Shown here: piece by piece, positions 6,777 to 48,581 of the stretch | How positions within the stretch are numbered: the first letter of the stretch is position 1 | How the letters are laid out: each line of letters starts with the position of its first letter | Assembly: GCA_029776205.1 (NCBI GenBank) | Contig: JAKOTQ010000057.1 | Location: 1-64,000 of the forward strand | Length of the DNA stretch: 64,000 nt | Reading direction: 5' to 3' | DNA from: Bacillota bacterium | GTDB taxonomy: Bacteria > Bacillota > UBA4882 > UBA8346 | The notes under the pieces: generated by a model | Databases searched by the model: none | What the model was told of the DNA's origin: nothing | Seen by the model: the letters and a program-made list of their open reading frames with translations, nothing else | Position numbers and translations under genes: made by a program

Positions 6777-6806
6777 TTGACAGGCTGTCTCAGGATCTAT
6801 TACAAT
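6777..6806 (+). promoter_or_regulatory. promoter of the porin-like gene
   Basis: TTGACA (6777-6782) and TACAAT (6801-6806) are separated by 18 bases. The transcript would carry a leader of roughly 185 bases before the start codon at 6998. Confidence 0.65.
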
Positions 6807-6811
6807 GTTAG

Positions 6812-6990
6812 CGGAGAAAGCTCCTGCATCAGGGTAGTTTTCCATCAATCGCCTTTCGGCGGTGGTGTACGGGCGGTTTGCGCGGAAAACGATGGAGCCC
6901 TCGTAATCAAGCCCGAGCGCTGGCGCTGGGGCGAAAGAGGAAACCACACTGGATGCGCGGTTTTCCCGAAAAACAAAAATACGAGGAGGA
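6812..6990 (+). promoter_or_regulatory. long structured 5' leader of unknown class
   Basis: This GC-rich leader contains several nested pairings. GTTTTCC (6837-6843) can pair with GGAAAAC (6884-6890), enclosing the small hairpin CGCC/GGCG (6850-6853 with 6858-6861). A further AGCGC/GCGCT-type hairpin lies near 6917. It matches none of the riboswitch signatures I can recall (purine, TPP, cobalamin, SAM, c-di-GMP). It may stabilise the mRNA of a highly expressed envelope protein or act in regulation. Confidence 0.4.
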
Positions 6991-6997
6991 AAATTTA

Positions 6998-7900
6998 ATG
7001 AAAAAGCTGTAGGTCCTTTTAGTAAGTGCAGCTTTGGTTCTTTCCATGGCTGCAGTCTCCATGGCCGCCGTTAACGTTTCCGCTGACTGGCGCGCTGAGT
7101 GGAAATCCGAACAGAAAGATGAAAATGGTAAAGATCTTAAAGACGATGAACTCGGATTCAGCAAATATGATCTCCGGTTCAACTTCGATGGTAAAGTTAG
7201 TGACACCATTGATGCCCACTTGCAAATTGCCTATGATAACACCGGCGGAAAAGTAACTGTCAAAGAATACTGGGCAACCTTCAAACAAAGCTGGGGTACT
7301 TTCCAAGCCGGTACCTGGGATTACAAACTCTATCCCAGCCGTGTTCTCATCAAACCGCACAGCCAAAACTGCATTAACGAAAAGACCATGCAGTTTGTAG
7401 CTACCGTTCCGTTCCCGAACGGCTTCTCCATCGGTGCGTTGGTTATCCCTGATCTCAGAGACAACAAGACCGACTGGGATCTCAAAGTTGCTTATAAAGG
7501 CAGCAACTGGGGCGCTGAAGTTCACTATGGTCAAGATGAAGAAATAGATGACGACTACTGGACCTATGATGTTTACTATCAAATTACCAAAGATATCAAA
7601 GTATTCTCCTTTGGTATGAATACCGATACCGACGGTACCCGCGGCACCAAGAAATGGGACGACGATTTCGCGCCGGCTATCGGTTTCCAATGGTCCAAGA
7701 TCGCTGGCAGCAAATTAACCGCTTCTTTAGAAGTTGGTCTTGAAACTGCTGGTAAATCCAAAGGAAATGACTTTACTCCGGTTGCCGTTCAATTGAAATA
7801 TGCATTCAACAACAAACTGAATTTGGAAGTTGAATACACCAATTATGACGGTATCGTTGAAGATGATGTCATCATCATCCGTCCGCGGCTCAAATTCTAA
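6998..7900 (+). CDS. porin-like outer-membrane beta-barrel protein with in-frame UAG at codon 5
   Basis: A strong AGGAGGA site at 6984-6990 places the start at ATG 6998. The frame reads MKKL, then TAG (7010-7012), then an uninterrupted frame of 295 residues to 7900. Residues around the stop form a typical signal peptide (VLLVSAALVLSMAAVSMA). The mature part is rich in aromatic and charged residues in alternating patterns (DLRFNFDG, AHLQIAYDN, LEVEYTNYD) and ends IIRPRLKF, a terminal Phe like the beta-signal of outer-membrane barrels. A single T-to-A change from TTG (Leu) would explain the stop. TTG 7034 or ATG 7046 are in-frame alternatives but lack a ribosome site and shorten the signal. The exact family is not recognised. 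Codon use past the stop looks intact and highly expressed. Confidence 0.7.
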
Positions 7901-7918: not shown

Positions 7919-7950
7919 AAAAGCTCTCCCCATAAGGGAGGGCTTTTTTT
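7919..7950 (+). terminator. rho-independent terminator after the porin-like gene
   Basis: The hairpin AAAGCTCTCCC-CATAA-GGGAGGGCTTT (one bulge-like mismatch) runs into seven Ts. Confidence 0.85.
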
Positions 7951-47896: not shown

Positions 47897-48018
47897 ATGG
47901 GTGTTAAAAACATTTTAGTCGGACAAGTTAATCCGGTAAAAAAGATTTAGCAAAAGATTTTCGTAGAGAAATGACGCCTAAAGAAAAAATTCTTTGGCAT
48001 TATTTGTGTTTAAGGTGA
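47897..48018 (+). pseudogene. remnant of a DUF559 (Vsr-like endonuclease) gene
   Basis: A frame opening at ATG 47897 stops early; in the shifted frame from 47941 the sequence reads KDLAKDFRREMTPKEKILW, the hallmark start of DUF559 proteins, before a TGA at 48016. The rest of the domain is missing. Frameshift plus truncation mark it as a relic. A CCCTCTC/GGAGAGGG hairpin lies upstream near 47836. Confidence 0.65.
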
Positions 48019-48028
48019 GGAAGGGGAA

Positions 48029-48581
48029 ATGATGATGGAGATTCAAGGAAAGGTTAAACCCGATGGTATCGTTGGAAAACCGGTTATTGAAAAATCTACC
48101 GTAAGGCCTTGGGCGCGTTTTTTTGCGAGAACAGTGGACATTTTAACCTCAATATTAATAATTAAACTTATTCTTCTGTATATCGATCCTTGCGGGCTAA
48201 TTGAAGCGAATTCCCCCGTTCATTTGGAATATGATTTTGCTGATGGTTATCATGTTGGTCGTTGAGCCATCCAAATATATTTCTTCCAAAGGACTTATGG
48301 AAAATGGTTATCGGCATCAGGGTATCGAAAAGTTCGGGGAAAAAATTTCATTGGGCCAGGCTTTCAATTGAAACAGGCTGGTTTGGTTATACGGCTTTGC
48401 CGTATGTTTGCTCATTATAAGAGTCATATCCATGTTGAGAACCTATCAAAAGTTAACCGATACTGGCACGACTTTATAGGATAGAAGATACGGATTCGCC
48501 ATCGAACACTCAAAGATTAAAGGCTGGGCTTTATTTGCCAGCGTTCTGGGGGTTTTCCTCATTTCCGCTTATATCGGTTGA
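48029..48581 (+). pseudogene. decayed RDD-family membrane protein gene
   Basis: The N-terminal part (ATG 48029, RPWARFFARTVDILTSILI) is the first RDD helix and ends at a TGA at 48263. After a frameshift near 48240 the sequence continues as VEPSKYISSKGLMENGYR, GEKISLGQAF, TGA, WLYGFAVCLLIIRV, KLTDTGTT-Leu, TAG, DRRYGFAIEHSKIKGWALF to a final TGA at 48579. The TAG sits where RDD proteins have the Trp of TSWD. One frameshift and two nonsense codons show the gene is inactive but recent enough to read. Confidence 0.75.

Follow-up and report, generated by a model that had tools for sequence, protein, structure and literature searches.

The porin gene and its surroundings

On the forward strand of the window, by which we mean the whole 64 kb stretch of DNA analysed here, a porin-like gene begins with an ATG at 6998–7000 that is followed by AAA AAG CTG and then by an in-frame TAG at codon 5 (7010–7012), so that the 5′ end of the gene (6998–7012) reads ATG AAA AAG CTG TAG. 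Beyond this stop, 295 codons remain open in the same frame up to a TAA at 7898–7900. This part (7013–7900) encodes the remainder of the signal peptide and the full mature porin with a final Phe, and its translation contains neither a further stop nor a frameshift. A Shine-Dalgarno sequence, AGGAGG, which is also kept in the orthologues, lies at 6984–6989. About 190 bases upstream of the gene there is a promoter-like site (TTGACA – 18 nt – TACAAT, 6777–6806) that matches the consensus at 11 of 12 positions, and an intrinsic-terminator-like stem with a T-run (7919–7947) is located immediately 3′ of it. Lying between these two elements, the gene is predicted to be monocistronic, a transcription unit of its own that the stem closes. 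A strong promoter, a ribosome site and an intact mature frame had been placed around the TAG in the preliminary description, and the sequence bears this out, the promoter as a promoter-like site.

The signal peptide as assembled is broken by the TAG and is not a functional one; possible restarts further downstream would have neither a Shine-Dalgarno sequence nor the charged N-terminus of a signal peptide. Inspection of the sequence found no homopolymer or short tandem repeat at the TAG codon. The gene is single-copy in its own genome, with no second copy of its 5′ region there, and the same genome carries two further porin-like genes whose signal peptides are undamaged.

Between the promoter-like site and the ribosome site lies a conserved 5′ leader of about 90 bases (6859–6945, leader model R1) with the core GGANAAC..TGGANCCCTCGT at 6884–6904. 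It occurs at six loci in 5 of the 29 genomes of the class that were searched, each time preceding a porin-like gene; the five belong to the family, and the remaining genomes of this set lack it. Its conservation suggests a lineage-specific cis-regulatory element, for which it is a candidate. An Rfam search with the leader returned no match of any weight, so a known riboswitch was rejected. A hairpin of six pairs closing a loop of 13 bases is compatible with 90% of cells, and none of its pairs has changes on both sides; the structure thus has no covariation support, and the leader was dismissed as a covarying structured RNA. Control by CsrA through the GGA loop was likewise discarded, there being no CsrA match in the genome.

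Identity and codon usage of the porin

The part of the frame that follows the TAG matches the Pfam profile Porin_4 (PF13609) with an E-value of 2.9e-9 and 37.6 bits against a gathering cut-off of 27. An AlphaFold2 model, built from an alignment with four relatives, is a many-stranded β-barrel of about 16–17 strands with a moderate mean pLDDT of 77.5. Whereas a sequence search of the PDB with the porin gave no match, the best matches in a fold search against the PDB were general porins, with E-values down to 5.8e-10 and, for this model of moderate confidence, TM-scores of 0.57–0.65. These included OmpF, Vibrio OmpT, the Rhodobacter blastica porin and Veillonella OmpM1 (8byt, 8bys), and identity to the solved porins was only 12–16%. 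Phe is common as the last residue of porins. Taken with this C-terminal Phe, the profile match and the predicted barrel similar to solved general porins identify the gene as a real porin. It is also more than a chance open frame because, in addition to the Porin_4 match, it shares 53% identity with the syntenic orthologue in G009, a genome of the same family, and the orthologues begin with a (M/V)KKLL start.

The codon bias of the porin gene, 0.61, is the strongest in the window; among the 39 other window genes the next value is 0.36 and the median 0.13. The enriched codons (TTC, AAC, ATC, GGT, GCT, GTT, ACC, GAA and AAA) are the ones that strongly expressed bacterial genes usually prefer. This bias gives indirect support to the earlier proposal of a highly expressed gene, and suggests that the porin was highly expressed for most of its history. 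Codon usage in 7013–7900 is unlike that of the other window genes in a further respect, in that CTC is the commonest Leu codon there and is rare elsewhere. The deviant usage is read here as translational selection, a foreign origin being an alternative. With the strongest codon bias of the window and no second lesion, the stop should be either very young or not real. The undamaged state of the promoter, the family-conserved leader and the ribosome site, together with this bias, likewise points to a lesion that is recent or to a consensus error.

Codon 5 in relatives and the origin of the stop

The assembly spans 2.73 Mb in 124 contigs and is 99.43% complete; such fragmentation, and the fact that the nearest named relatives are metagenome assemblies, make it probable that it too is metagenomic. 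Codon 5 was compared in four genomes of the same family, none of them of the same species (G002, G003, G006 and G009). In each, ilvN is followed by a porin-like gene, as it is here, and a TTGACAg box occupies the same position ahead of the orthologous genes in G002 and G009. All four syntenic genes carry Leu at codon 5, as TTA or TTG, and their N-termini read (M/V)KKLL where ours reads MKKL*; because Leu is kept throughout, the TAG is best understood as derived, a lesion within a signal peptide that the relatives conserve. The idea that a single substitution (TTG to TAG) would restore the signal peptide is backed by these orthologues, which point to a lost Leu codon, and the comparison with relatives that had been proposed has thus yielded intact copies. 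The sole congener, G001, is 85% complete and uninformative for codon 5, since neither the porin nor ilvN finds a match in it. A wider contig search with the porin alignment returned no relatives, and one with ilvN as query returned only more distant named metagenome assemblies.

In the reading we favour, a genuine and recent nonsense mutation has inactivated this abundant general porin in the strain that was sampled; we place the chances of this reading slightly above even. Translation would start at 6998 and be terminated by RF1 after four residues, and the exported barrel would not be produced. The loss could be tolerated because the porin is single-copy and predicted to be monocistronic and the genome has two further porin-like genes; with the terminator-like stem directly behind the gene, polar effects are not expected. 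Mutations that abolish a porin are common and often bring an advantage, porins being frequent targets of selection for loss, and here the loss may have been favoured by the pressures that commonly select it, for example phage adsorption. A null allele agrees with the Leu of all four syntenic relatives, with the absence of a second lesion in the frame, with the failure to find a suppressor in the genome, and with the lack of a duplicate of the 5′ region that could have confused the assembly. Against it, the gene looks strongly selected, so that a majority null allele would be unexpected unless selection had changed, and the TAG base itself rests on one assembly of the species.

This recent loss-of-function allele is favoured over a base-call or consensus error of a metagenome-assembled genome, which would leave the porin gene intact in the living population and which we regard as a serious but less probable explanation. 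An error is made plausible by the probably metagenomic origin of the genome and its fragmentation in 124 contigs, and by the lesion being a lone one, with all else intact, in the gene whose codon bias is the highest of the window. About 4.2% of all possible single-base changes in the window genes create a stop, so such stops are not rare, and by our own arithmetic a few tens of random errors in genes genome-wide would suffice to give one. Many internal-stop pseudogenes in public bacterial assemblies are assembly errors, most pseudogenes have one lesion, and single-lesion internal-stop cases are common in assemblies (PMC11017572). On the other side, the remaining large genes of the window, the conserved ones included, showed no comparable clear lesion, and the site has neither a homopolymer nor a repeat. 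Paralogue collapse during assembly was rejected, as the genome holds no second copy that could have been collapsed. Elsewhere in the window, at 48014–48484, two open stretches in one frame are separated by a TGA, the first without a Pfam match; they may be what is left of a gene, or two frames open by chance.

Coexistence of both alleles in the population, with the consensus showing one of them, appears improbable. Such on/off heterogeneity of a porin, as occurs with phage-selected mutations, would suit porins being often selected for loss, and a metagenomic consensus hides polymorphism; the codon lies in neither a homopolymer nor a tandem repeat, either of which would speed up switching. For the same reason the suggestion of phase-like silencing lacks a mechanism at this site.

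Decoding of this UAG as sense, whether through a suppressor or through programmed read-through, with the porin still being made, is very unlikely. The intact downstream frame and the preserved codon bias would be accounted for by such decoding; several findings speak against it. A full-length RF1 is present in the genome, and no PylS was detected there above the cut-off, the only matches being weak ones in long frames (29.6 bits versus 178) of a type that also arises in most control genomes without Pyl. None of the 45 tRNAs found has a CUA anticodon, a count in which a tRNA lying in an assembly gap would be missed. The orthologues carry Leu and not UAG, hpt ends in UAG close to where the hpt genes of relatives end, and among the 49 window frames chosen (at least 120 codons and ending in a stop) 7 stop at TAG. 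Pyrrolysine or another reassignment of UAG was therefore rejected on the grounds of RF1, PylS and the tRNAs, in agreement with the earlier view that wholesale reassignment is unlikely, and the search for a suppressor or Pyl tRNA elsewhere in the genome, which had also been proposed, left the read-through option without supporting machinery. A tRNA-Leu(CAA) mutated to CUA, considered because this tRNA was absent from the Rfam tRNA list, was ruled out when its 5′ half, bearing a normal CAA anticodon, turned up at one end of contig C28. The same contig (L094, G000:C28:204–223 and C28:1–40) has a tRNA-Leu(CAA) 5′ half without a 3′ half about 190 bases from the apparently genuine tRNA-Leu(CAA), which is truncated by the contig end; the orphan half may be a scar left by an integrated element. 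Least credible of all is a UAG deliberately kept so that an unrecognised decoder, reading it at a low and controlled level, holds back the export of the abundant porin.

The four options given in the preliminary description are in this way reduced to sequencing or assembly error and recent mutation, read-through and phase-like silencing being unsupported, and its account of the anatomy, the lost Leu and the non-reassigned UAG stands.

Significance and comparison with known systems

A single early stop in an otherwise intact gene is a phenomenon already known, narrowed here to two ordinary causes, and most likely it has no bearing on the genetic code and is not a new way of reading it. If the lesion is real, it adds another loss of an abundant porin in a natural population, this time from a Bacillota lineage that has received little study, and could help in asking which forces select for the loss of porins in that habitat. 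Should the stop be an error, it illustrates that one consensus base in a metagenome assembly can erase an abundant protein from annotation.

The locus resembles pyrrolysine and amber-suppressor decoding in having an in-frame UAG within an otherwise intact frame, and differs from it in that the gene encodes a porin and not a methylamine methyltransferase, the orthologues have Leu, RF1 is present, and neither a PylS above the cut-off nor a CUA tRNA was found in the genome. It also resembles the single-lesion internal-stop pseudogenes of PMC11017572, which also have one stop in a conserved and otherwise intact gene, although metagenome-assembled genomes were not assessed in that study.

The OmpM proteins of diderm Firmicutes, such as Veillonella parvula OmpM1, share the barrel fold and are likewise outer-membrane porins of Bacillota. 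They are defined by an N-terminal SLH stalk, and the four stalked OmpM paralogues of Veillonella parvula are thought to be its only porins (PMC10628300). In the present protein, neither the Pfam search nor the predicted structure revealed an SLH domain or stalk, and the barrel follows directly after the signal peptide. The frame at 7013–7900 thus encodes an SLH-stalk-free porin in a Bacillota lineage, in contrast to the stalked set of Veillonella parvula. There is likewise a resemblance to general porins (Porin_4; OmpF/OmpC and Rhodobacter blastica). Although the porin is set apart from these by its low identity to the solved members, its Bacillota lineage and its stop-interrupted N-terminus, it has in common with them the profile match, a predicted barrel that aligns with theirs, the C-terminal Phe and, in its orthologues, a Sec-type signal peptide.
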